Shown here: piece after piece, positions 1,376-56,409 of the stretch
Layout of the letters: each line of letters starts with the position of its first letter
Numbering within the stretch: position 1 is the stretch's first letter
Origin: Polytrichum commune
Taxonomy: Eukaryota > Streptophyta > Polytrichopsida > Polytrichales > Polytrichaceae
Assembly (NCBI GenBank): GCA_950295325.1
Contig: OX485803.1
Location: 77,331,554 to 77,395,553 of the forward strand
DNA: 64,000 nt
Direction: 5' to 3'
Position numbers and translations under genes: made by a program
The notes under the pieces: model-generated
Told to the model about the DNA's origin: nothing
Database searches by the model: none
What the model saw: only the letters and a program-made list of their open reading frames with translations

Positions 1376-4300
1376 TTTGGGGAATAGCATCACACGCATC
1401 AATTGGGATAATCAATGCACTTATTTAAGTTATATTGCAACAACATGATGTTAAACATGTTCTCTCCCTACCCCTACCTTCCTTGGCTTAGCTTATCTTT
1501 CCTCCTAGTTCCCTTGGAACCTCAACCAGGGTGACTCTGATTCGCTACTGGTTGTCCATGAGGAAGCAAATACTGGCTACTGGCTCCACTAGGTGTTGTT
1601 CCACATCTCTGTATTTTAGGTTACTAGTTGGCCCACTGGTGCATGTCCTACCAACAAAGTGAGGAGGGTTGAGCGGTTAAAATGAGCGGTAATGGCAGAC
1701 CCTAGACTTTTGAGAGCAACTTTTGAATTTAAAAATCGCAGTAATTTCAATATAGCCATAGAATTACCGCAATCCTCCTGATTTCTATCGTCCGACACGG
1801 GCAAAATTTGCACCACCTCATACTTCTCCAGATCTGGCGCAAAATCTCTCAAGTGATCGGTAATGGGCGTCTCTACTCTATACTCCCAGTCATCCTCTAC
1901 ATACTCCCGTCCATGATTGAGGGGCTGATCACACCGGCCAGTTTAGACACCATCCATCAGCACCTCCGGCTGTAATAGTGTGTAAAGTGGTAGACCAACA
2001 TCTATCTCTCCACATAATCCCCATCAATTTCACGGCTGGAACCGGTCGGAATTTTTGTGTGTGATGGGGGCATGAGTAGTGTTGATTGGTTTCGTCTCGG
2101 ATCCCTTCTTCAACCAGGAACCTGGTCCTCACGCTCACAGTTATATCCGCCGCTTACCAGGCAAGATTGTTCATGAGACTCCCACCTACCCAGACTTCTT
2201 CAGTGGTCACTAGCTGGGCGTCCTTGGCGTCCTTAGCCTGGCTTCAGGCTTTGCATACCCAAGTTATCATGCGCCCAGAGGTCGTTATTATTATGTCTAC
2301 ACATTTCTCCCTTCAAAACCAACACTCAAACTCTGTGCGTCTACTGCTTTGTACACGTGGACTTGCTGTTGTAGTAGCTACGCACATAAGTTAGATTCAC
2401 ATTAAGAGTTTCGTGTCTCGGGGATTACAACAACACTTCCCCTTTTGTCTTCTAGGGTTTCTATACTCGTATACTCTTACTCCTTTGATGGAAAACCACA
2501 CTTGATGACCTTGGAGAGGAGAGAGCTTCTCCCTATCTCCCTTCTCCTATATACTCTACACTCACATTCAAGTCTCACTTGCAGCCACATGTTCCTGTAA
2601 GAACTTAGGCCATTTCATGTTCTTCCTAGTTGGTCTTGTTGGCTGGTAACAACAATTGGTTGTTTTATTATTATCATTGTTATTTATTTCCACCTATCTT
2701 CTTAAACTTCTATTCCTAATAAATGATACATTTGATAAATAAATTTTTTTTTATAACAAAGCGTAATCCTAAGTGATATATCATTATAATAGGCATGAAT
2801 GATGCAATTGATAAGGGTAATTTTTAGATTACAGCTATATGGTTGGAATCAAGGAATCTTTGAACTATTACCAAAATATCAATTTAGAGGCATTTCCTCA
2901 CAAAATTGATATAAATAATTAAATTTTAAAATTTTAAAATAGAAGAAATGTGTTTGAGTTGGTTAAAAAATATGGGTTCGATTATGTAGCGGAGAATGAC
3001 AACAAATATCAAGTCAACCACCAAATTGCTTTCCTTTAATAATCAATTTTCTAACAAAGAAAAGTACATGATGTTTGAACACTTCAAAATTCATAGAGAG
3101 ATGTTGGTAGCAGATTCTTACATACCGATTGACAAAGACTCTAATACTTACAAGTGGGAAAATAAACTCACTAAAATAAACACTTGTCCAATACCGCCAA
3201 AGTTACTTCAAGAAGCATAGGCAACTGGCTTTAGGTTGATGAGTCCTTCAAAGGTTCATGAATATTTCAAGTATCCCTCTTTGGTATTGGCTTTAGTTAT
3301 CATGTAAAATGTTCATACCATAACAATGATGTATACATAGATGTGGCCCATAACATTGTGAACAACATAAAACACCTTAGAGCATGATATGAATGAGGTT
3401 AATAGAAAATATGATCATTATTACATGAGAAATATTTGGCCACAGTTTGATAAAAATTAAAATTAAAAGTATTCAAAATGAACGATCGTACATGCCAATT
3501 GCATGAATTTTCTTTGGGGGCGTTAATTGGAAGCCAAAAATGCCACATTTTAAAAGAACCAATTGAAAATTGACATCTTTTTCTAAACCAAAAAATATAC
3601 ACATAAAAGGGCAAGTGACCCAAAAGTGATGCTAGTGACATTAACATTTTGGAACGTAGGCGTAAAGTAGTGTGAAAATACATTTAAAAAATGTTCTTAG
3701 TGGTTTCAACACAATGCCAATGTTCTCAATAATCATAGTTTAGTATTATCAAATTTATTTTAATATTTGAAGACTGTTTAAACAAGGAAAGTCATCCAAA
3801 CACAAGTTTCATGGTTGCAATTTAATTGCAATTTTCATATATTATATGTATTAATTATCCTCTAACATTTTTAAATATAGTAAAAATGATAATTGAGGGA
3901 ATTATTATTTTTCAAATGAAGTTTAATTTAGTTTGCATCACTACTACATAACCAATAGGTGGAGAAGGTGAAGGGAAGAAGGGGGGGTTTATAAGGGAGG
4001 GTGTGTGAGTAATCTTCTTCTTAATATTGCCTCAAATAAGTGATTTGTTTTATCTATACAATACACAACACTTTAGATTAATCTATGGATGAAGTTGGTT
4101 TAGCATCTTAGGGACCCCCTCATTTAGGGTGCATACTAAATAATTTGAAACCTTGAAAAATCACTCGCCCCTGATATGTATACAAGGCTTCTAATGTTCA
4201 ACCCTTTGATGAACACATGCGCTATATACATACTACACTCATGGTGTGGGTTCATGCTCAATACTAGATTCACATCCTCAATTTCACTTCCAGTTGACAC

Positions 4301-6369
4301 CGTACTCACGAATAGAATTGGAAGAATAAGAACATAGGAAGTAGTTGGAGATTCAAGTGTAACTAGCATTGCCAGTTATTTTCGTTTGCGATGATGTATA
4401 TTGTGGGCCATCTTGTAGGCATCTTGCAAAGGGAAAGTAAAACTAACTCATGCATGAGTCCACTATATTTACCATAATTAATCTAGTTTGGTAGGGGGTA
4501 CAAATTGGGATGGGGTTTAGTAGTCAAGGCCATGTAACCAGGTGTGATTATGCATCTACATGCCCTTTAAAAAATAAGAGCGTTAGCCCAAATTCTACAA
4601 AGTGATTCCCCTAACCACACCCACTTGTACAAGTTAATGATGTCATCTTGTGTAGTACTAATTTCTTGATGGGAGCTAGTTCGAAAAAAATAAAAAAATG
4701 TAAATAGGTTACATCAAACCATAAAACTTTAAAAACATGTGAATTGTATGACTATGGACTTGAGATTCACAAAGTTAGATTATGAGAGGCCATAGTTTGA
4801 TTGGAAGGGATGTACCTCTCTTGGTCTGAGCACATGGCCAACGTTTGGTATAAGTAAGGCAAATTTTATTCAATTAAGAAGACTGTGTTGTTGTCTTTTA
4901 GGCTATGATGAATCTTTGCCAAGTCTAGATTGAGAATGACATTCTTCCTTTTGAGTTGCAGAGGAATTGTAGGTCAGATGGATGATACACCTTTGAGCAG
5001 ATTGTGACAACTATCTAGTATGTAATTTTTTATAACAACCAGGGGGTTTGTACTGGTTTGTCCATTTCTTGTATCTTTGCTCAGTGCAAATTCAAAGTGT
5101 GCTGAATACATTGTATTAAGGCTGCACTACAAACTCGACATTTTGTGCGAATTGGCATGTACTGATTGTCCGCATCGAGAGTAAATTCACACAGATCATG
5201 GGCTTTGTAGATCTCGCATTGACATAAGGTTATTACTGTCAAAAGATACTGTGAGTTAAATAGAAAATGGAAAGTGTAGCAGCAAAGGGAACGAATTGAA
5301 TGCGAGTTTTTTGCAATTGTATTTGGAAGCCCTATTTTGGGGTTTCATTGTGGACTTGTGATTGAAGAGATTGGAAGTCACCGGTCTGGATTATATGTAA
5401 AAGTTGAATCGATTGAAGGTCGTCCCTAAGAATTGAGTATCTCTTAATGATAATCCCCAAGAAAGATTAAGACAGTCATTGTTTATCCAAGCCATTGTTT
5501 GAGGGACTGATGTGTGTTGTAGAGTGTGCACATTTGCAGAGGTGGTATGTAAAGAAGGGTTGAGTTGGGATGACAAACACTCAGGGTGCAAAAATGTGTC
5601 ATTGTCCTTGTGTTGCATGTTTTTTCTTCCCAGGACAAAAAGGCCAAGAAGAATGATCTTGATTTCTTAAAGTGCAAACTCAGACCATTATCTATGGATG
5701 TTGTGGCTTGGGATACCTTTGCTCTCCGCCAGAAGCTGTGAGAAGAGTAAAAGTGAGAGAAGAGTTGGTGTCTGCATGTTTGTAAGAAAGATTTAAATCA
5801 ATTCGCGACCACTGTCTTAGGTGAATCATCTGATTTTTTGAGAGGATGCAATAGAAGGTGGACAACCCAATGAGCAGATTCGCATCCATTAGGCCTCAAG
5901 TTGGTATTGAAACCGAGATCTAAATCAATTCTGAAAGCATGCCATAACTTCTTGCAGGAATGTGCCAGTTGTTGTTGTTGCAGAAAATGAGAACTGTTCT
6001 ATGTAAGTCTAGTTAACTTAAGTGGTGCACTATAACTTAGATGAAGAGTCGCATGATTAGGCAATAGAATAGACTGTCATCTGGGAACTCTACAGACTGA
6101 ACCCTTCCTAATTACCAACCTCATTACCATGTTCCCTCGTTAGTGGAAGAGCAGGAGTATGCTCTGTTGTGCATGGTTGGATCGTAAGGAGATGGACATC
6201 CAAGGGCCTAGATCGGACTTCTGGAATTCCATTATGTGTTTCATCCATGGGGTTACAAGGTGATTCTCTTGTATTGTACTTATTTATTCTCATAACTGAA
6301 GATGTGAAGGCTGAATCAACAAATAGGCAGACATTAAGTCCCCTCATACGAACTATGGGGGGTGTCAGA
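1376..6369. other. Intergenic, nothing recognised
   Basis: About 5 kb without a supportable gene. Open frames such as 2,086-2,394 (+) lack recognisable motifs, conserved partners or splice context, so I treat them as chance. No terminal inverted repeats with target duplications were seen. Confidence 0.5.
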
Positions 6370-12005: not shown

Positions 12006-14739
12006 CTATCCCCGTTGGTTTGTGAATAACCAACGTAGAACAAATACAGTGAAAGGCCAGAGTACAATGTTCACCAAGCCTAGCACGATTGTTACCGTTC
12101 CTCCCAGGAGTCCGAGAGCCCAATATAATTTCCTCACGAAGCCCATAGGTATGGTCTCCTCGCAATAGTCTGGTTTGCAGATGTTGTAATGCGCCGTCCA
12201 ATTAGCGTATATTTGCAGAAATCCTATCCCCTTAATAGTCTTAAAAAGAAGTACGGCGGGGTTAGAAATTTTGAAATCTACCAATCTTTTCAAACGGTCC
12301 GACTGACTGAGTGCACCATAATAATAAGAATCCCACGGGTCCGTCCCCACACCATAATCTATTGGAACGTCCCTCAAGAAAGACATCAAGGCATCACCAT
12401 ACATCGTTGCTGTTGGATTGACAAGATCCATAGGTATCAATGATTGTATGTTCACAAAATTACCTGCAAATGCAAGGGAAATGTTGAATAAAAGAATTAG
12501 ACTCCAAAACTGGAAAGTGTAATACCTGCGAGGAAAATATATATATATATATATGTATGGAGACAGAAGGCAAACAAAGCCAACGCCAATTAATTTCATC
12601 TAAAATTAATAAATTAAATTTTCGGTAAAAACTCAGCAGATGTATCATTTTGTGAACTGGTAAATTATAGACTCACCTCGAACAGACTGTAACACACTTG
12701 CTGCAAGAGCCTCTGCATTGAGAAGAAAGGGTGTCTCCAAAGGCATAGACCCTTCTAGGTTTGGATCTAGATTAAAGAGCACTGTTGTCGCGAGGCGACA
12801 CATGGCTATCCACTGCGAAACTACAGCAGATGAGGCGTTTACTGGCGGCCACAGATCTGTAAAATTGCAAAACTTGTCTACTGTGAGAGGAACTGTATCT
12901 TTCTGTACATGGCCAGCCAATGGAATTCCACTAGTGGTATCGAGTGCCGACACATTGATCGATGGAGATTGCGCACTCGTATTATTATAATCAATACTCC
13001 ATTCTGGTGATGAATCTTTGTAGAGGACATAGACATTCATGATGTCTGCGATGTTCTTGATAGTCGTCTTCGTACATGGGCATGAGATAGGGTCGTACGT
13101 CTGCCCGTTGGTCTTGTTGAAAAGTTTGCCAACAGGATAGGCCTTATTCTTGCCCTGCAAATTGGATATTTGCTTTACACGGACGTCGGGCGCCTCCCAG
13201 AAAAGGAAAACAAGAGAGACTGAGAATCCGGTCAACAAGATGATTAAAAAGCCCAGCCGACACAGGGCACGGGAGGGTGCCGGGTCCTGTACTGGTTCTT
13301 CTCTGCAGAGAATTTGCAAACATAGAATCCAACAGGTCAATAAATATTAGTGTAGATCTCCCTTCAAAATTGTACGCATTATTACATAAGGTAAACCCGT
13401 CTAATTCGGCTACTTAATCTTAAATAGACATCTATATTTGAGTGGCGTATGGATAGTTGTGGATCCAAGAACGGGCACCCCAAAGACATGTTTTGAAAAG
13501 AGATTGGACTAAATTCTGCTCAAAATTTTTTAACGACTCTAGGCTCAACAGTCAACGTATGGAGGGGAGATAATTTGGTCGTTTTATAGTTCAAACACTT
13601 TTGACTTTGAAAAATTATAGCAGCTGCCAGTATCAAGGGAGCGCAAAGCATTCCACAGGTTGTTGGTGAAATCCCATATCACATTTGCGGATCCAAGAAA
13701 TTTCCTACGTCTGAAATCCAAGTTGAGAATTATGGTAAACAACAAAAACTTGTAACCATTCAAGACAAAGTTTGATTTTATGGGAAATAATTCATTTGAC
13801 CACATCTAATATATTTCCTAGATCAAGAACCTGCTCACTCAAATACTCAACTGCATTTAGCCTAACAGGTTTTCACTGTGCAGCATGGTGCAACTTTGTA
13901 TGAAAGTGCGCTCGCTGCTAAATGTCCTTGTCAAAACAGTGCACGAGCATGAAGTAGTTTGGGCAGTTGCTGATTCAACCCACTTCAGTCGATAAAACTG
14001 CATTGAGGTTTATATATACTAAGCGTGACCGGATTAGCAGCTTACGTTTTTAAGTCTCTGAGAAAACCGGCCACCTTGAGGTCCCCCCATGCTGTGATTT
14101 TGCTCATAGTGCCATTCGCTTTCTCCATGTTGCTTGCGCACCACAGTCGCTACCAGACGATCCGCAACCACCCAGTATTCTGTATCATATAGGAAAAGCA
14201 TGTTAATGTAACAGCAGCTAGAATTCCCCGACACACCTGCTAAATCACAATGTTACACCACGATAAGACGCACTCATCAGACTACATCACCACCTGCAGT
14301 CCGTACCATACATATGGGTCTTAAATTCTGTGAGCACCTCAAATTGCAGCCAGTCCAAGTCGGAGATGTTCAAACTCGTGAATGAAGAGGTTGCGCTACT
14401 AGGAAACATGCGCCTAGAATGTCCCAGGATGGACTCGTCTCTCGTCGCTTGCGTCGCGTTCGAAGAATCCAGTAAGAACTGCATGCATGTATCAAATGGG
14501 AAGAGCATTCCAGGCCCATGATAATTTGTAGTAGTGTTGGTCCCATTTAAAAAATGGTCTGGTACAGACAGCCGCGGCTACTATTGATGAGCCAGTTCAT
14601 TTTCCTCAATTACGGATTGAGAATCAAAACTGTAAGCAACTCCCAAACTACGTTTCGGAACACAAATTCTATTGAATATTGAGTGCATGGTCTTACCGAC
14701 ATACAGAATCAGCGTTAAATAGCTGAACCTCTGAATCGT
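12006..14739 (-). CDS. Multi-exon gene for an unknown glycosylated membrane protein
   Basis: The exons I can support, in order of transcription, are 14,577-14,307, 14,179-14,046, 13,302-12,677 and 12,463-12,006. The first two join in phase (Y-G|AA), and the last two join in phase across a 213-bp GT-AG intron (R-G|GT-N). Small candidate exons lie at about 14,739-14,697 and 13,700-13,610, but their phases do not resolve cleanly, so the 5' end and the middle are uncertain. The predicted protein has a membrane helix (LGFLIILLTGFSVSLVFLFW), then about 300 residues with many N-glycosylation sequons (NKT, NNTS, NVS, NFT, NAS, NWT). It ends with CKPDYCEE, LGLLGGTVT and a second helix (NIVLWPFTVFVLRW). 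Two helices around a large cysteine-bearing outer domain is a channel- or receptor-like layout. I recall similar CxPxxC-LxxxGG ends in uncharacterised proteins of non-seed plants and protists. The function is unknown. It ends at 12,006. Confidence 0.75.
12536..12555. repeat. (TA)n microsatellite in intron
   Basis: A short TA run inside the intron between the last two exons of the membrane-protein gene. Confidence 0.85.
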
Positions 14740-26150: not shown

Positions 26151-26179
26151 CTTCAAGATTGTAAATTCTAAGAAGTTTC

Positions 26180-27019
26180 ATGATACTCTTAAAAGTGAAG
26201 AATACCTATGGGTTTAATGCTTTTGTACTCTCCCATATCACTATCTTGTTCCTTCCACCAAATGTGACTTCAGTTGTTCAGCCTTTGGATCAAGGAGTGA
26301 TTGCAACATTCAAAATGTGCTATAAGCGCAAGCTTGTTGCCTGGACTTTGCAACAAATTGATAACAACTCAAATGAAGATTTGGGGAAATTGAATGTTGA
26401 TGTATTTCAAGCTATGCTATGGTGTGTGGCGGCATGGCATGAATTAGATGATCAAACCAATAGAAATTGTTGGAGAAAGTCCGCCATATTGCCTGCAGAG
26501 TGGAATGCATATATAAACAATCTTGATGAACGTATGAAGTCCAAAATGGAGGAAGCAACTTTGGAATTGGGTAGACTCATCGCCGCATTAAATTTGGGTT
26601 TGGATGTTGAAGGCAAGCATGTAGAAAAGCTTTGTCCTTTGGAGTACATAAACATGGAAGGTGAAGATGATTTTGAGGTGGAATTTTCTACTGAGGAGCT
26701 TGTGCAATTAGTGCAAGATGACGAACAGGTTCTTGATTCCATGGAAGTGGACCCATTGATTGTTGATAGCAGTGATGATGAGTCTAAAGTAGTGAAGCTA
26801 AGCGATGCACAAAAATATGCTAAAGATGTTTTGAATTTTATGGCTAGCCAAGGTTCTCAGATTTTCAGCACTCATGAGTTGTTGTTAGAAATGGAAAAAA
26901 TCCATGACAAACTCATTAGAATTGGTGTTGCACATTTAACATCAACAAAACAATGTGACATTAGAAGCTTCTTTGTCTCTAGTGAGAGGTCTTTACCTGA
27001 TCTCAATGACACATTATGA
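26180..27019 (+). pseudogene. Tigger/pogo-family transposase, C-terminal half
   Basis: The 279-residue frame opens into LPPNVTSVVQPLDQGVIATF (residues 25-44), the hallmark around the third catalytic acid of DDE transposases of the Tigger/jerky/CENP-B group (Asp37 here). A typical C-terminal region follows: WCVAAWHELDDQT, then CWRKSAILPAEWNAY, an acidic stretch (residues 166-205) and a final helical tail ending DIRSFF. The first two catalytic acids and the N-terminal helix-turn-helix are not found upstream, so this cannot be a working enzyme unless distant exons exist. The ATG at 26,180 is only the first in frame. The long undamaged frame suggests the element is young or that this part was under selection until recently. 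Confidence 0.85.
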
Positions 27020-47740: not shown

Positions 47741-47956
47741 CTAGGCATCATGCCCAATATAGAGTTGCATGGGGTGGTCAAGCTTGTGAGACTTTGGGAG
47801 TCCAATTGCATTTGCTCCATCATGGCAAGGTTCACACAGATCGAAGTCTGAACACTCTTCACAGTGCCAACGTTGATTTTCAATGTGCATGGAACATCCT
47901 TCGCACAAATGTTGACTTGGTTCCCACATTGGGTTGCTCTTGTTGGCGCTATCCTC
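47741..47956 (-). CDS. ZZ-type zinc-finger exon (probable last exon of the TNL)
   Basis: The 71 codons from a good acceptor (TTGTTGTGCAG) to a TAG stop encode CEGCSMHIENQRWHCEECSD, then FDLCEPCHDGANAIGLPKSH and KLDHPMQLY. The spacing C-x2-C-x10-C-x2-C-x5-C-x2-C-x12-H-x3-H is the complete two-zinc ZZ signature. The exon opens in phase 0, and the TNL exon ending at 49,221 has a strong donor (GAG|GTAAGT) in phase 0, so splicing across a 1,264-bp intron is possible. No separate start codon or upstream partner exon was found between them. It may instead be a remnant of another gene. ZZ fingers bind N-degrons, histone tails or SUMO in other proteins. Confidence 0.6.
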   Translation of the reverse strand, partial: EDSANKSNPMWEPSQHLCEGCSMHIENQRWHCEECSDFDLCEPCHDGANAIGLPKSHKLDHPMQLYIGHDA

Positions 47957-50900
47957 CTGCACAACAACTCTTTTGACTCAATTTGTTGGTCATATTTACA
48001 GATTTGCCCATTGCTATTGCAACATGCAAAAACCGTAGTTTGATGTCAACTTGTAAATGTCATGGTTGTATCATAATTTTCTACCTTGATTAAAACAACT
48101 TGGATAATATAATATCAAGAAGGAAACCAAATGAAGGAATTTATGAATATTTATATTCTTATTACTATTATTGCTTATGCATAGTTCACATCCATAATGT
48201 CCAATTTATCAATCAAATCCATGCAATAAATGCATATGTTTCTTAGCCTATAAAACTTTGTCCTTGTCATAAAGGTTGGAGAAGTCAGGATATAGGTTGT
48301 GCAACTAAATCGGTGAAGAAATCTAGTGATTGTTTATCCAGGTTAGGAATGGAGAATTGATTGTTGTAGAAGCAATTCTATTGGTGTGCAAGAAATAGAA
48401 AACATGGCTCAAGTTCAAAAACATGTGATGGCCACCTCATCAATTACAAACCAAGAGCTTTCCTTGTGAATATTTTCTTCGCGTGATATATTTAACCTTG
48501 CTCCAATGTGAGACTGATGCAATACATGTATATGTTTCTTAGCCTATAAATTTGCAAAGACAATATTGATGAGGCCTTAGTAAACATACATGTAAGTAGA
48601 GTAGAGAGGTCAACTTCTTGCGTCAAGTGTGAATGAAGAGCCTCTTTACCCAAGGGCTATACATTGGTTGACACAAGTCATATTTCACCAAAGGGGGAGG
48701 AGGCACATCCTCTAAGTTTTGTGTACACGTGCCTCAACCATACATTATTATGGGTGCTAATATGTTAGATTCTAGGAGTTTTTGAGACCTTTATATTTTA
48801 AAAAACGGCCCTCTGATACATTTCTATGTACAACTTGACTACTAATAAATCTTGGGACTCTTGCATTTCCAACATGCTACTTGAGACCCATAATAACCCA
48901 TATTGAAGTTATATTTTGTCACTCAAAGTGATTAAAAAAATGAAGAATAAATTTTGGCATTTTGAAATATTTGGGTCACATTTAGAATGTACCTAATAAT
49001 CGCCACATAAAACATGACATCTTCTTTCTCCATCTCTGATTTATAAAAACGTTTTTCTTATTTCAAAGTTGTGACATGTGTTGAGTTCAATATTTATAGT
49101 TATCATTAGTTACTTAGTATTTTGTTGAACCAAATGAGGCATACCAACTTATGTCTACCATTAGCTTTCATAAATCAACAAATCAAAACATAATGCATTT
49201 TCTATTTTGTTGGAACTTACCTCAACCATAATACAAGAGATTTTCATGGGGTCTTCAATGCTTTGTATGGTCACATTGTTTAGCTTTTCCAAATTGTCAC
49301 CCAATACCAACTTAGAAAACATATTCGTCATCTCTTGTGGCATGGTGTTGCTCGTACTTCCAACATGCCCACCCCCTTTCATTGTCATTTGCACCTCTCC
49401 TACCTCCCATTTGGAAGTATGCACCACACACACTGCAACCTCCTTCACAATAACCGTCCAACCAAGATATTTGGATGTTGCATACAAACATATCTTATCC
49501 CCACACTTTGAATTACACACCAATGAGTTGCCTCTCCGCAATGTGCATATATACACTTGATCTTCACTATCAGCATGTCGTAGCTTGAAAAGTTCATAGT
49601 TCTCAATTTGCACGTTGTCTCGAATAAGCCGTGCCTCTATAGAACAACGAGAATCATAATGTCCATGACTATCAATGTGCTTGGACCAACCTTGGTCGTG
49701 TGCTACGATGAAAAAAATGATAGCCAAACACTCCTCTTCATTGGTAATAATGAAATTTGTGCAACGTTTTGTGTCACACTCCACATGTATTGGTCTTTGT
49801 GTCAAACCCATGCTCACAACTGGAAAAGACTTATCATAGTAGCTAATAATTTGACGACTTGGTTCCATCTGCAATTTCATCAAAGACAAAGAATTAAACT
49901 CCTTAACCCTCAACTTTGCACGTTCCATACTAATTTTTGAAACTTTGAAAGCACACATCAAACATGCATTGGGACACATTTAATCACCATTGTCTAGAGC
50001 CTTTGTGATAATACTTGAGTGGATCTATTAAAAACATTGATACCAATGGACCACAACAATCAATGCGTTTCCGATAAGATCCATTGTTAGTTTAATGCTT
50101 AATCAAAATATGCAATCAAGGGTTCAAGTTTAGATCAATCACAATACTTAATAAAATTGTAAAACTAATATTTACCTTTCTCCAATCATTGTCGTACAAA
50201 ATGGAAACACTACTTCCACTTAGGTAACACCTTTCCAGGACCGCATTTGAAGACAATACGGAAGAACATTGTAATGTGCTACAACCAGAAAGATTGAGCT
50301 CTTTTAAAGCTTCCAAAGACTCCAAGTCATATAGGTGTTTCAATGCTTCACAATTGCAAAGTGATAAAAATGTTAGCTTCTTCAATATAGCAATTGATGG
50401 AATGAATGTGAGCTTACGACATGCCCCAAGATCAAGGACCTCCAAGGTCTTTGGAAGGCCTTCAATGGTGGTCAAGTTTCTACAATGTGACATGTTCAAA
50501 TATTGTAAAGAAACCAAGTCCTCCAACACTTTAGGGGATATCACGATTCGATTATATTGCAAATTGAGTCGTGTAAGAGATGTCAATAGACCAAACTCTA
50601 AATCTCTTCTTGCAATATCCTTGAGCGAACAACCATGAAGATTAAGTTTAGTTAGAGCTTGCAATTCTCCAAAGCCATTTGGGAGCTCAATAAGGTCACG
50701 ATTATAAACCAAGTCCAATTTCTTTAATTGCTTGAGGGAACTAAAACTATCAGGTAGTTTTTGTAATAGATTAATATGTTTAAGCCTCAACACCATCAAC
50801 TTTGTAAAATGTTTGATATATGATGGGAGGCTCTGGACTTTGTTAGAAGACATTTCAAAATGTTCTAACATCACCAACCCAACAATACTCAAAGGGAATT

Positions 50901-53620
50901 CCCGCAAATCTTTGAAATTTTTCAATGTCAAATTTGTCAAATTGGACAATTCCGATATTGAGTCCGGCAATTGGGAGATGGTGGGTTTGTGATGATTGGC
51001 ACCCAAGTCAATGACCAACTGATTAAGGTTATGAAGACAACCAAAGTCATTTGGGAGACCTTCAAGTGGACATCCGTGCAATTCCAAGAAGCGTAACCTT
51101 TGGAGTCCCATCATGGATGAAGGCAATTCTTGCAAGTCTTTGAAATTTGCCAATCTTAAATATGTCAAATTACACAATTTCAATAATGAGTCCGGCAATT
51201 TGGAGATGGTGGGTTTGTGATGATTGGCACCCAAGTCAATGTCCAACCGATCAAGATTATGAAGACAACCAAAGTCATTTGGGAGAGCTTGAAGTGGACA
51301 TCCCTGCAATCTAAAGAAGCGTAACCTTTGGAGTCCCATCATGGATGAAGGCAATTCCTGCAAATCTTTGAAATTTGTCAATATCAAATGTGTCATATTG
51401 GACAATTTCAATAATGAGTCCGGCAATTTGGAGATGGTGGGTTTGTGATGATTCGCACCCAAATCAATGTCCACCTCATCAAGGTTATGAAGTTGGCCAA
51501 AGTCATCTGGAAGGGCTTGAAGTGGACATCCATGCAATCTCAAAATGCGTAACCTTTGGAGTCCCATCATGGATGAAGTCAATTCCTGCAAATCTTTGAA
51601 ATTTCTCAATGTCAAATTTGTCAAATTGGACAATTCCAATATTGAGTGTGGCAGTTTGGAGATGGTGGGTTTGTGATGATTGGCACCCAAGTCAATGTTC
51701 AACTTATCAAGGCTATGAAGTCGGCCAAAGTCATCAGGGAGACCTCTAAGTGGACATCCATGCAATTCCAAGAAGCGTAACCTTTGGAGTCCCATCATGG
51801 ATGAAGGCAATTCTTGCAAATCTGTGAAATTTGCCAATCTTAAATATGTCAAATTGCACAATTCCAATAATGAGTGTGGCAATCTAGAGATAATGGGCTT
51901 GTGATGATTGGCACCCAAGTCAATATCCAACCGCTGAAGGTTACGAAGATGGCCGAAGTCATCTGGGAGAGATTGAAGTGGACAGTTGTGTATTGTCAAG
52001 GATATCAAGTTCACGAGTCCAAATATGGTTGATGACATATCTTTAATATAGTTGCAGTTTGTTAACTCCAAATATTTCAAGTTTGATATCTCAATAATTG
52101 CATCTAATGTTTTGGAAGGGGCAACATAGTTCTTATTATAATTGGGGGTTATAGATATCGAGCATACATGATGTTGATCATCCCCAAGAAAACCTTGCAA
52201 ACTACTATTATGTAGAGTCAAAGTCTTTAACCTCTTGAATCCATGTATATTGGAGGGATGTCCTCTACAATTTGTCAACTTCAAAACCTCCAATGTATCA
52301 CATAGATATAAAATTGAGGCTTGTGGCGTCAAAAGAAAAACTTCTTCAATAATGTGGAGCCTCAACACATTGAGATTGTGAAGTTGTTCAAAATCCTTTG
52401 GAAGGTAATGACATATAGTACCTTGTGCATTGAACGTTTTCAATTTGGCAAATTGTTTCATAGTAGTGGGTAGTTCATGTAATGCGGTGCAGTGCTCAAT
52501 GTTTATTTCTTCTAGATTGATTAGATGTGAAAATGTCTTTGGTAGCTTCAACAATCCAGAATGACTAGCATCAAATGTCACCAATCTTTGAAGGTTTCCA
52601 AACAACTCAGGCAACTCTCTCAACATTTCACATCGTTGGAGTTTAATCACTCTAAGGTTGTGTAGTTGGGCAATGGATTCAGGCAATCCCTCCAAACAAC
52701 TGCACCAATATAATGACAAATGCTCAAGCTCTTTAAGGTAGCCGATGGAATCAGGCAAGGTCTTCATAGTATCGCAAAATGCCAAATCCAATGTTTGTAG
52801 CCTTGATAGACTTCCAATATCTTGAGGGAGTTCTTTCAACATATTACAGTTGTTGAGTAACAATATGCATAATTGTGGAAAAGGTACCTAACATGCAACA
52901 TTGAAATTAAGTATGTGATATAATGAAAGAGAAAGTTTGCAAAACATTGTTAGACCATGTTCCATATCCAAATAAACCAAATACATCATACTCCATTTGC
53001 TGCCCAAATGCATATCCCTTCAACCAATACAGTAAATCACATATAACCCAATAATTATATATAGTGTTAAATACATAGAAACTAGTATAGATAACAGTGG
53101 ATTCTAATGTCAAAATAGTATGATTTGTGGTGCAAAAAAATGGACAATGTTGTAACTAGATAAGCATGTCACATAGCAAAATATGAATATTATACAAAAG
53201 TCCAAGGGATATATATTTTTTTAATAACAATCATGACCCAAGATGACTAGGGTTCAAAGTGTTGTAATACCTGCTCTCCCAATTTAGTTGGCCACAACCG
53301 AGTCAGATATCGGTTCGAATTTAAATCAAGCACTGCAAGATTGGACAAGTGCATTGTGGATGGTAGCTCCAATAGCTTAGAGTTCTTAGACCATTTCAGC
53401 CATCTGAGACTTTTTGGCCATGCGAAAAAATCTCCCTCCACGTCACATTTTTGTAATATAAGAAACTGCAACCCGCACATTGTTGCAAATTTGTTTGTTG
53501 CCACTGTTTTATGAGGTTGGCCTCCTGTTAAATACAACCCTTTAACTCGGTTTGATCCCTATATTAGTCACAAAACACAATATAAGATTGTTATGTTCTT
53601 TATAAATACATGAATGCATT

Positions 53621-53660
<40 letters not shown>

Positions 53661-56409
53661 GAATTTTGATTAATCACTATTCTACAAAACAATATGGGCA
53701 TTTGCCTATACTAGTCTAAGAGCATTTACCTCAAAGTAATATGACCTTCGTGACCCTTAACAATTAATAAATTGGATCTACTTTTAAGTTTTCATTCCTA
53801 TTGGGTTCACAACAATGAAGTATTCAACTTACAATAGAGGTGTCCAAAGTACTTTCTAAAAACCTTATACTTCAATGTCAAGAAGTGCTTCTACATGATT
53901 CTTTGAACTCGACATCTTGAGAACAATGGTTTTGTTTCTACTTAGATGATACACCATCCAAAGTATCATTCATTCCAAAGGGATTTGTCATGCATTGTAA
54001 TGCAGATTTATGATAATTTGACAAAGCATTCCTTATTATGTTCTCATTATGTTGAATCAACATCCAAAATCTTGAAAATGTTACATCAACAAGAAAGTGT
54101 TTGAATTGATTATAATGACTAAAGATCTCCAATGACATGAAAGTTTTGTTTTTCTTGGTGACACCAAGATTAAAACAAATGGCTAGGTAGAACATGGTAA
54201 GCATCCAAATGTGAAATTTACTTGATTTCCCTCCACCACGCTCCTTGAAGTCTCGGGATTCCACAAGTGGCTTCTTTCTCCAGCAACATGCGATTGCCTC
54301 ATCACCATTTCCCTTCCCATATCACATAAAATGTCATGCATTGATATTTTGTGCTCAAGACCATTTATTTTTATTAAAGATTTGTCCCTCAATATACGCA
54401 AGGACAATTGTGGAGACCTGTATGAATCACAAGATTCCCATATCTTCATAGCAAAGTTTTCTTCCTTGCCTACTAAAAAACAACTTATATCAAGAAACAT
54501 TTCTTGCTCTTGGCTATTAAGAGAGTCGTAGCTTATTTTGAGCTTGTTAGAAATGTCAACATTCATCCCCAAATCCTTGCTTGCTTGATGCCAAAATATG
54601 ACATCATTTGGGGTTTTCTTGTCATACAAGACAGCTCCCATGACCTCCAATGCCAGTGGAAGGCCACCACAAGCTTGAACAACCTCCTTTGCAAGATCAT
54701 GAAAACCGTCAGTTGGTTCCTCGCTACAAAATGCATGCCAATTGAATAGCCTCGAGGATTCAATAAAGGTCAATTCTTTAACTTCATATAATGCATTTTC
54801 ACCTTGTCCTTGAGTGATGTTGTTCAACAAATTTCGATCTCGGGATGTTACAAGAACACGACTACCCAAACCCAAGGTCTTGATTTGAGGTATGAGAGAG
54901 TCAAATTGGCTTCTATGGTTTATGTCATCGATGATAATCAATACTCGCCGACTACCTAGGCGGTCAAACCAATAAGAAACATATTCTTTGTTGTTCTTGA
55001 GATCTTTTTGGAACACATCACGTACCAATTGTTTTTGCATATCCATAATAGAATTTTCCTTCACATCTTTCAAGAAGCATTGGCATTGAAATCTTTCGTG
55101 TTGCTTTACAAAGTGGTTGTACACTTCTATGGCAAGGGTGGTTTTCCCAATGCCACCCATACCTACAATGCCCATACTCTTAACAACGTCGTCTTGAGTC
55201 ACGTCCATTCTTTCAACCACGTCTTTCGTAGAGTCTTCTAATGCCACTCGATGACGAGGACTTTGTACATATTGGTACGGAGACAAAACATCTAGAACCT
55301 CATTAACGATTCTTTTAATGAGTTTGGCTTCATCTCTACAAACGGAAGGGTGTTGCTTAGTTAACATATGCTTCAAAACATAAAATCAATGCCTATGAAT
55401 TTGTTGAATTATGTTGGAAAATTTACTTGAAATTAAAACAACAACTATGTGAAAAGAACACATATGCATAAGTTTTGATATTGAAAACTCACCCATACTC
55501 TGTAAGGAGAAATCCTCTGATTTTGGCAATCTCCAAGAGAGCAACCTTCCACCGTATGATGTCTTCTTCCCGCCCTCGTGTTTTATGCTTGATAAACGCA
55601 TCTGCAAATGGTCCATCATGGGGCTCGTATAAATGCATTGGATCAACATCAAAATATATTGGTAGGATTGGTTTTCCGCTCTGGAGCATATCACACAATT
55701 CGTTAAGACAATATTTGGATTCTGCATAACGCTTTGAGAATACGGCAACATGAACACCGACTCCAGTTAGTGCCTCATTGATTGAATGTAAGGCATGGTG
55801 CCCCTTTACAAGGGATTTTGTATCGAGGAAGGAATTGAGTCCAACAGAGATGAAAGCTCTATTGAGGTGGCTAACAAACGATAGCCTAACATCAGGTCCT
55901 CGATGGTTCAAGAAAACATCATATTTTTTGTGAGATTGAAATTTTTGAAAGGAATCATCATCCAACAAAACTCTTCCTTGGTTGTCCAACGCGCTTGTTG
56001 ATGGGCTTGTATCAAAATCCCTTTGGCGCTCGAGATTGGTATGCTCATCATGAAAATATCGTAAAGCATGTCCTTCACTTGGCAAGCCTTGCAAAGTATC
56101 TTGGACCAAACACTCTTGAAAACTATTTGCAATTGGCAAGTCTTGTGAAAAATCGTTGACTTGCAAATTTTGTTGCAAAGCACTTGTTGTGTCGTCCAAT
56201 GAAAGAGATGTGTGACCATGGTCTTGAATACAACAATGTCTCCCACAAATCCATTGTAATATGTTTGCTACAAATGGCCAACAATGCTCCATTCTTTCCA
56301 AAATGTATGCTTGAACGATTTCCCCCCTCCTCAAAATAATCTGATTAAGAATGTAGATCTCCAACTCTGGAACTGCAACCCCTTCAAAGGTGCTTAGGAC
56401 ATGATCCAT
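47741..56409 (-). CDS. TIR-NB-ARC-LRR immune receptor with extra C-terminal domains
   Basis: Exons: 56,409-55,493; 55,335-54,222; 53,558-53,271; 52,887-50,176; 49,868-49,221; and, less certainly, 47,956-47,741. Every junction is GT-AG and keeps phase (Y-G|A-DEAKLIKR at the first), giving 1,893 residues, or 1,964 with the last exon. Residues 1-160 are an unrecognised extension. The TIR domain (about 161-305, YDVFLNHRGPDVRLSF) keeps the SH pair and the NADase glutamate (E237 in YCLNEL). NB-ARC has the P-loop GMGGIGKTT (K370), kinase-2 LIIIDD, RNBS-B GSRVLVTSRD, GLPLAL and MHD (638-640). LRRs fill about 700-1,677. Exon 5 encodes a DQGWS-type domain, and exon 6 a ZZ zinc finger. A cytosolic sensor that activates NAD-cleavage-based immunity is expected from the family. 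The ATG at 56,409 is chosen because an in-frame stop lies 15 nt upstream. No truncating lesion was seen. Confidence 0.93.
49221..49868 (-). CDS. TNL exon 5: DQGWS-type beta domain
   Basis: 216 codons, in phase on both sides. The acceptor is TTGATGAAATTGCAG. The motif order AHDQGWSKHIDSHGHYDSRC, ..IEARL, then GDKICLYATSKYLGW followed by a paired strand VKEVAVCVVHTS matches a beta-sandwich-like module that I recall as DQGWS...G.Y..S..W.EA...GD.I.V.A...(P)GW from uncharacterised plant and fungal proteins. It takes the place of the C-JID domain usual after the LRRs of flowering-plant TNLs. No function is known for it here. Upstream text to 49,979 is also open but lacks a phase-compatible acceptor, so I take the exon start at 49,868. 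Confidence 0.65.
50893..52010 (-). repeat. Five near-identical 228-bp units within the LRR exon
   Basis: The landmark GTGGGTTTGTGATGATTGGC recurs at 50,981, 51,209, 51,437, 51,665 and (with two changes) 51,893, exactly 228 bp apart. Each unit is 76 codons, about three LRRs, and reads LPSSMMGLQRLRFLELHGCP, then L.GLPDDFG.LH.LD.L.ID, LGANHHKPTISKLPDS and LLELSNLT.L.L.NFKDLQE. The reading frame is preserved throughout. Low divergence among units implies recent unequal exchange or gene conversion. Confidence 0.95.
53621..53657. repeat. (TA)n(CA)n microsatellite in TNL intron 2
   Basis: A TA run followed by ACACACACAC in the 663-bp intron between the NB-ARC exon and the first LRR exon. Confidence 0.9.

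Follow-up and report, generated by a model that had tools for sequence, protein, structure and literature searches.

The TNL receptors of flowering plants carry a beta-rich domain, the C-JID, directly after the LRR domain. Domains integrated into NLR receptors indicate host proteins that are attacked by pathogens, and the presence of a ZZ zinc finger in NLR-like genes of the moss Physcomitrella (P. patens) was reportedly described by Andolfo et al. in 2019. In the accessible part of a paper on these genes, one sentence names ZZ (PF00569) among their domains (PMC7145615). Mosses have more NLR integrated domains, and zinc fingers are among those of non-flowering plants, according to the accessible text of Chia et al. 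2024, which names no ZZ (PMC11218826). A ZZ is named for wheat Lr10 in an excerpt from a survey of zinc fingers in R proteins (PMC3419713), and the main text of a 2025 survey of angiosperm integrated domains contains neither 'zinc finger' nor 'ZZ-type' (PMC12787737). Outside the receptors, the ZZ of AtUBR4/BIG is described in part of one report as binding peptides with an N-terminal Arg, N-RA and N-RR (PMC7618180), and its crystal structures are, by their PDB titles, of fusions to R- and Y-degrons. The accessible sections of a 2024 review still call binding by the BIG ZZ open and describe the alpha-amino group as held by a pair of Asp residues in the ZZs of PRT1 and p62 (PMC11668491).

Here, we describe a computational analysis of a 64,000-nucleotide stretch of Polytrichum commune DNA (the window; C1:77331554-77395553 in a 408-Mb assembly whose contig C1 measures 77.85 Mb). 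The window holds a predicted TNL gene in which the LRR exon is followed by an exon encoding a DQGWS module and by a last exon encoding a ZZ zinc finger.

The spliced model of this gene lies on the minus strand, from 56409 to 47741, and consists of six exons that are separated by GT-AG introns and form one open frame. Intron 1 is in phase 2 and all others are in phase 0, and the joined exons (5895 nt) encode 1964 aa and are interrupted by no stop before the terminal one. Exon 1 (55493-56409; aa 1-305 plus 2 nt) encodes an N-terminal extension and the TIR domain (Pfam E 3.1e-22; 79.6 bits, cut-off 21.3) and ends at a phase 2 donor, GTGAGT. Exon 2 (54222-55335) encodes the NB-ARC domain (E 2.3e-32, 112.6 bits), with the P-loop GMGGIGKTT, and a winged helix (WHD_ROQ1, E 8.1e-13). 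The LRR domain, which follows the NB-ARC within the one frame, begins in exon 3 (53271-53558), an open phase 0 exon encoding a linker and the first LRRs, and continues in exon 4 (50176-52887; LRR_14, E 4.1e-63, 213.7 bits). Exon 5 (49221-49868) encodes the DQGWS module, aa 1678-1893, which is predicted to be a beta-sandwich, and is joined to exon 6 across intron 5 (47957-49220, GTAAGT...GTGCAG), the donor GTAAGT and the acceptor TTGTGCAG being in phase 0 on both sides. Exon 6 (47741-47956) encodes the ZZ zinc finger (E 7.7e-9; 35.7 bits, cut-off 21.4) and the stop; its zinc core, at about 47768-47905, contains all eight zinc ligands. Each of these five Pfam families scores over its cut-off. 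The first-pass annotation had raised the possibility that the LRR, DQGWS and ZZ exons encode one protein, and the 1964-aa frame, the GT-AG junctions and the phase 0 joints bear this out. The strong phase 0 donor that it gave exon 5 was found as GTAAGT, with the ZZ exon opening in phase 0 and carrying its own stop in an open frame, and its numbering, in which the DQGWS exon starts at residue 1678, is matched exactly by the spliced model. On this genomic evidence the six exons very probably constitute one gene with the architecture TIR-NB-ARC-LRR-DQGWS-ZZ, which would be spliced in RNA as predicted. Elsewhere in the window, a plus-strand ORF at 26168-27016 with a DDE_1 endonuclease domain (E 4.6e-16) looks like a transposase remnant, and two adjoining long minus-strand frames (12009-12599 and 12648-13346) have no Pfam match at E up to 0.01.

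The gene is a member of a family. A genome search with the ZZ frame listed 18 matches at E <= 0.001, 12 of them on contig C1 (76.45-77.38 Mb), five on contig C4 and one on contig C3, and a search with exon 5 listed 16 matches at E <= 0.01, comprising the same 12 C1 loci and four on C4; only the best candidates were scored in these searches, which a decayed partial DQGWS exon, L035, escaped. Among the matches listed, a ZZ exon is present downstream and on the same strand for 16 of 16 DQGWS exons, and 17 of the 18 ZZ matches belong to these 16 receptor genes. The domain order proposed in the first-pass annotation thereby gains the backing of 16 genes, all from one genome and falling into two divergent groups.

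The 12 C1 copies are clustered near one contig end, and each of them has its ZZ exon behind exon 5 in the same orientation, joined in phase 0, with an open frame and a stop, which speaks against a chance arrangement. Exon 3 has a stop-free, full-length match in all 12. Intron 5 is GT-AG throughout (1194-2604 nt), with the donor GTAAGT (GTAAGC in L017) and an acceptor ending in CAG (TAG in L017); its retention would introduce a stop 7-19 residues past exon 5 in all 12 copies, so that an isoform devoid of the ZZ is possible. A search with the NB exon, in which the best 110 of 462 candidates were listed, recovered 12 full C1 copies (87-100%), the window copy among them, each accompanied by a ZZ. 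It also recovered two incomplete NB matches at 86% (77028338 and 77151238) that have no DQGWS or ZZ match; the remaining NB matches among the 110 listed are at 47% or less. All eight zinc ligands are kept in 11 of the 12 copies, L020 having Ser in place of Cys35. The window copy is open throughout, unlike its damaged paralogues, in which exon 1 contains frame breaks or stops (L013, L018 and L020) or the LRR exon contains a stop (L015), a pattern that reads as birth and death inside the cluster. In eight copies (L010-L015, L017 and L019), the initial ~29 residues of exon 1 are matched in a different frame from the remainder, and these copies may therefore start further in; this is not so in the window copy, L018 or L020, and in L016 exon 1 is covered only in part. 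The LRR exon of the window copy contains a tandem array at 50892-51984 with a 228-bp (76-aa) period and 4.8 copies by TRF. Across the 12 C1 copies, matches to exon 4 span anywhere from about 1044 to 5448 nt; in nine of them, the window copy included, the matched length is that of the window copy or is longer by an integral number of 228-nt units. Neither exon 5 nor the ZZ exon changes much in length among the 12.

The second group consists of four divergent TNL genes on C4, in which open exons are arranged in the order TIR, NB, LRR, DQGWS and ZZ and are 45-47% (TIR), 37-38% (NB), 31-32% (DQGWS) and 37-39% (first ZZ) identical to those of the window gene. The junction between exon 5 and the ZZ exon was read by base at two of the four loci: in L022 the exon ends at TTG before gtaagt and reopens after tag at GTC ATG TGG (intron 399 nt, phase 0), and in L024 it ends at GTT before gtaagt and reopens at the same GTC ATG TGG (intron 1145 nt, phase 0). 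Exon order and junction phase are thus common to two groups that are about 31-47% identical by exon, which favors a single ancient acquisition, and we infer that the ZZ exon probably entered the receptor lineage once, ahead of the split between C1 and C4, and was then kept. As described below, the scores of the C1 and C4 fingers with BIG exceed those between the two groups, a result that two separate acquisitions could explain too. Three further features of the C4 loci were noted. Behind the intact ZZ exon of L024 lies a second, degenerate ZZ stretch (L024:4253-4447) that has lost its first Cys. Another TNL, L035 (C4, 4.08 Mb), contains the decayed partial DQGWS exon (4077-4313), and no ZZ lies within 2.7 kb downstream of it. 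Finally, an ORF encoding a ZF-HD dimerisation zinc finger (PF04770), on the same strand and with its own stop, is located 1.0-1.2 kb upstream of the TIR frame at all four loci (L026:3196-3666, L027:3397-3861, L028:2144-2608 and L029:4385-4849; two stretches in three of the four) and could be either a neighbouring gene that was copied along or a further N-terminal exon.

The DQGWS module between the LRRs and the finger has no Pfam match with an E-value below 0.06. When seven sequences from this genome were aligned with 28 of 36 database matches (35 in all), nine residues were invariant (A49, H57, D58, Q59, R83, L96, Y106, T109 and S132); one relative (P0032) is from Sphagnum jensenii. An AF2 model (pLDDT 68, pTM 0.72) has eleven strands, and fold searches with it retrieved many beta-sandwich domains and no clear family; the module is read as a predicted post-LRR beta-sandwich. 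In two database proteins, P0006 and P0019, the DQGWS module comes first and LRRs come after it within a single open frame, opposite to the arrangement in the window gene.

The finger itself most resembles that of BIG. Among all PDB chains, the top match of the window finger is the Arabidopsis BIG ZZ (9lgr, 53.8 bits, E 1.8e-13; also 9lgs and 9qt9), ahead of S. pombe Nbr1 (38.6 bits), p300 (31.3), p62 (29.0 and lower) and KCMF1 (24.9). The C4 finger of L022, which is 40% identical to the window finger, likewise matches BIG best (53.6 bits; CBP 29.0, PRT1 about 20). The C3 match, the nearest ZZ of the genome outside the receptors, is located in the plant's own BIG gene, where a 604-aa frame aligns with Arabidopsis BIG (9qt9) over residues 6-585 at E 1.6e-209. 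With this BIG finger, two fingers from each receptor group (C1 and C4) reach 47-53 bits; C1 and C4 fingers reach at best 41-45 bits with each other, and the other non-receptor fingers of the set reach 42 or less, the comparison covering solved structures, the genome ZZ matches listed and database fingers. When an AF2 model of the window finger (pLDDT 70, pTM 0.54), whose input alignment included the BIG finger L021, was used in a fold search of the PDB, the degron-fused BIG ZZ ranked first (E 8.6e-5), followed by HERC2 (1.8e-3) and p62 (2.1e-3). A tree of the ZZ core (28 sequences, 62 columns, P0046 dropped) has long branches and places BIG beside C1 and the C4 fingers with database fingers labelled HERC2-like by resemblance (support 80); it shows neither a single clade of receptor fingers nor C4 beside BIG. 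Judging from the pairwise scores for C1 and C4 and the modelled fold for C1, the receptor finger is likely to be a ZZ of the BIG/UBR4 type. The earlier suggestion that the finger is an N-degron reader or an integrated decoy gains concrete form from these scores and this fold, the histone readers CBP and p300 scoring lower.

Positions 19, 22, 37 and 39 of the ZZ exon are those that we take to form the ligand pocket, by their presumed correspondence to p62. BIG has D,S,D,D at these positions and the first C4 fingers have D,N,D,D (D,N,D,A in L025), so that D19 and D37 are present in four of four and D39 in three of four. Among the C1 fingers, E,S,D,D is found in the window copy, L010, L012, L014 and L015; the others have E,S,S,D (L013), D,F,D,D (L011), N,F,D,D (L016 and L017), E,S,N,D (L018) or N,F,N,D (L019 and L020). 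Position 19 is thus E or N in 11 of 12 C1 copies, the window copy included, and position 37 is not D in four of 12. Because positions 19, 22 and 37 vary in C1 and Asp19 is replaced by Glu in the window copy, N-degron binding may have been lost in this group; 24 of 71 C1 ZZ positions vary, and variation at three of the four presumed pocket positions is not significant (P 0.11).

The coding constraint on the ZZ exon bears on whether the finger belongs to the receptor at all. Averaged over 66 non-independent pairs of the 12 C1 copies, mean dN and dS are 0.060 and 0.166 for the ZZ exon (ratio about 0.36) and 0.049 and 0.101 for exon 5 (ratio 0.48). If the ZZ exon were a separate small gene or a decayed exon, the mature receptor would stop after exon 5, and the stop met 7-19 codons past exon 5 upon intron retention in every C1 copy would suit such an arrangement, as would the Met that directly precedes the finger in 11 of the 12. 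However, the nine codons before this Met are themselves constrained (pS 0.226, pN 0.069), the Met is replaced by Val in L019, and an alignment of the 12 copies from exon 5 to past the ZZ stop has 48 distinct gap intervals in the 1264-nt intron and 15 in the 3' flank, against a single one in the 648 nt of exon 5 and none in the 216 nt of the ZZ exon. Together with the phase 0 junction common to both groups and the 16 of 16 association in two clusters, these observations make a separate ZZ gene in the intron (47,957-49,220), which the first-pass annotation had named as evidence against its own model, very improbable. It is also unlikely, to a lesser degree, that the finger derives from another ZZ protein (of the NBR1, HERC2, PRT1, HAC or ADA2 type) and owes its likeness to BIG to common features of a small domain. 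The core is short and the tree groups the C4 fingers with HERC2-like sequences, but BIG leads by 15-25 bits for two fingers that are only 40% identical to each other, and PRT1 and p62 rank lower in both sequence and fold.

Two further explanations accept the finger as part of the receptor and differ in what it would do there. The ZZ could be a structural or regulatory tail that sets the receptor level through stability, dimerisation, or a ubiquitin ligase or autophagy partner, and takes no part in recognition. The near-constant length of the ZZ and DQGWS exons and their dN/dS below 0.5 are in keeping with this, as is the concentration of variation in the highly variable LRRs; the variation at three of four presumed pocket positions counts against it, although it is not significant, and we regard a tail function as improbable, if not remotely so. 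Alternatively, the ZZ could sense N-termini directly, its BIG-type pocket binding the ends created by pathogen proteases or by host N-degron chemistry, such that the degron itself is the ligand. The degron-fused crystals and peptide binding of the BIG ZZ and the Asp residues kept in the first C4 fingers agree with direct sensing, whereas the replacements at positions 19 and 37 in the C1 copies do not, and this explanation appears somewhat less probable than that of a tail. In its most specific form, in which this TNL family would read degron ends arising when pathogens cut or modify host proteins, with a BIG-like pocket in C4 and a diversified one in C1, the proposal is more doubtful still; if true, it would unite NLR immunity with the N-degron pathway within a single molecule.

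The explanation that we moderately favor is that the segment with the DQGWS and ZZ exons is the 3' end of a TNL gene with a long-kept, integrated BIG-like ZZ that would serve as effector bait; for the bait role taken by itself, we consider the odds to be even. We infer that the ZZ, resembling the N-degron-reading finger of BIG, would be held on the receptor as bait and that the trigger would be either a pathogen protein that binds or alters the ZZ of BIG or a protein end bound by the finger, in both cases changing the C-terminus of the receptor. The steps of activation are modelled on what is generally known of flowering-plant TNLs. In the resting state, the LRRs and the DQGWS module would keep the receptor off and would also contribute to recognition; upon contact with the effector, the LRR-DQGWS-ZZ end would free the NB-ARC switch, the receptor would assemble, and the TIR domains would signal. 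No effector directed against BIG in mosses is known to us. That a divergent, multi-copy lineage of receptors has kept a BIG-like ZZ suggests that in this group of plants pathogens attack, or once attacked, the BIG/UBR4 ligase, and that these receptors may guard the protein-degradation machinery. As a small, purifiable domain, the ZZ lends itself to probing BIG/UBR4 as a target, and its two natural variants, in which the presumed pocket is kept (C4) or changed (C1), could separate a decoy from direct degron sensing.

The first-pass annotation knew of no described receptor with this order of domains. A ZZ in moss NLR-like genes had in fact been published, as cited above, and the Physcomitrella genes resemble the window gene in joining a ZZ to an NB protein in a moss; the accessible part of that paper gives no TIR-NB-ARC-LRR-DQGWS-ZZ order, exon position, copy number, ZZ type or likeness to BIG (PMC7145615). 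Likeness to BIG, an order including DQGWS and a ZZ in every member were not found among the papers listed by our literature searches. In relation to known systems, the window gene shares with plant TNLs the order of TIR, NB-ARC with a Roq1-like winged helix, and LRR, as well as clustering and variable LRR length, and differs in its additional C-terminal DQGWS module and ZZ. Like the C-JID, the DQGWS module is positioned directly after the LRRs and is beta-rich by prediction, but it has no sequence match to the C-JID, none being found for exon 5 in Pfam at E up to 1. The receptor finger and the ZZ of BIG/UBR4 (9lgr, 9lgs and 9qt9) have the same eight zinc ligands, and the C1 fingers match its spacing after the third Cys pair; the receptor finger has one residue fewer between its second and third Cys, and the presumed pocket residues are changed in C1. 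A non-canonical ZZ inside an NLR protein is supported here by gene structure and constraint. As in the integrated-domain NLRs of the integrated decoy model, an extra domain that resembles part of a host protein is carried on a full receptor; unlike a sporadic fusion, the BIG-type ZZ is present in all 16 members listed.
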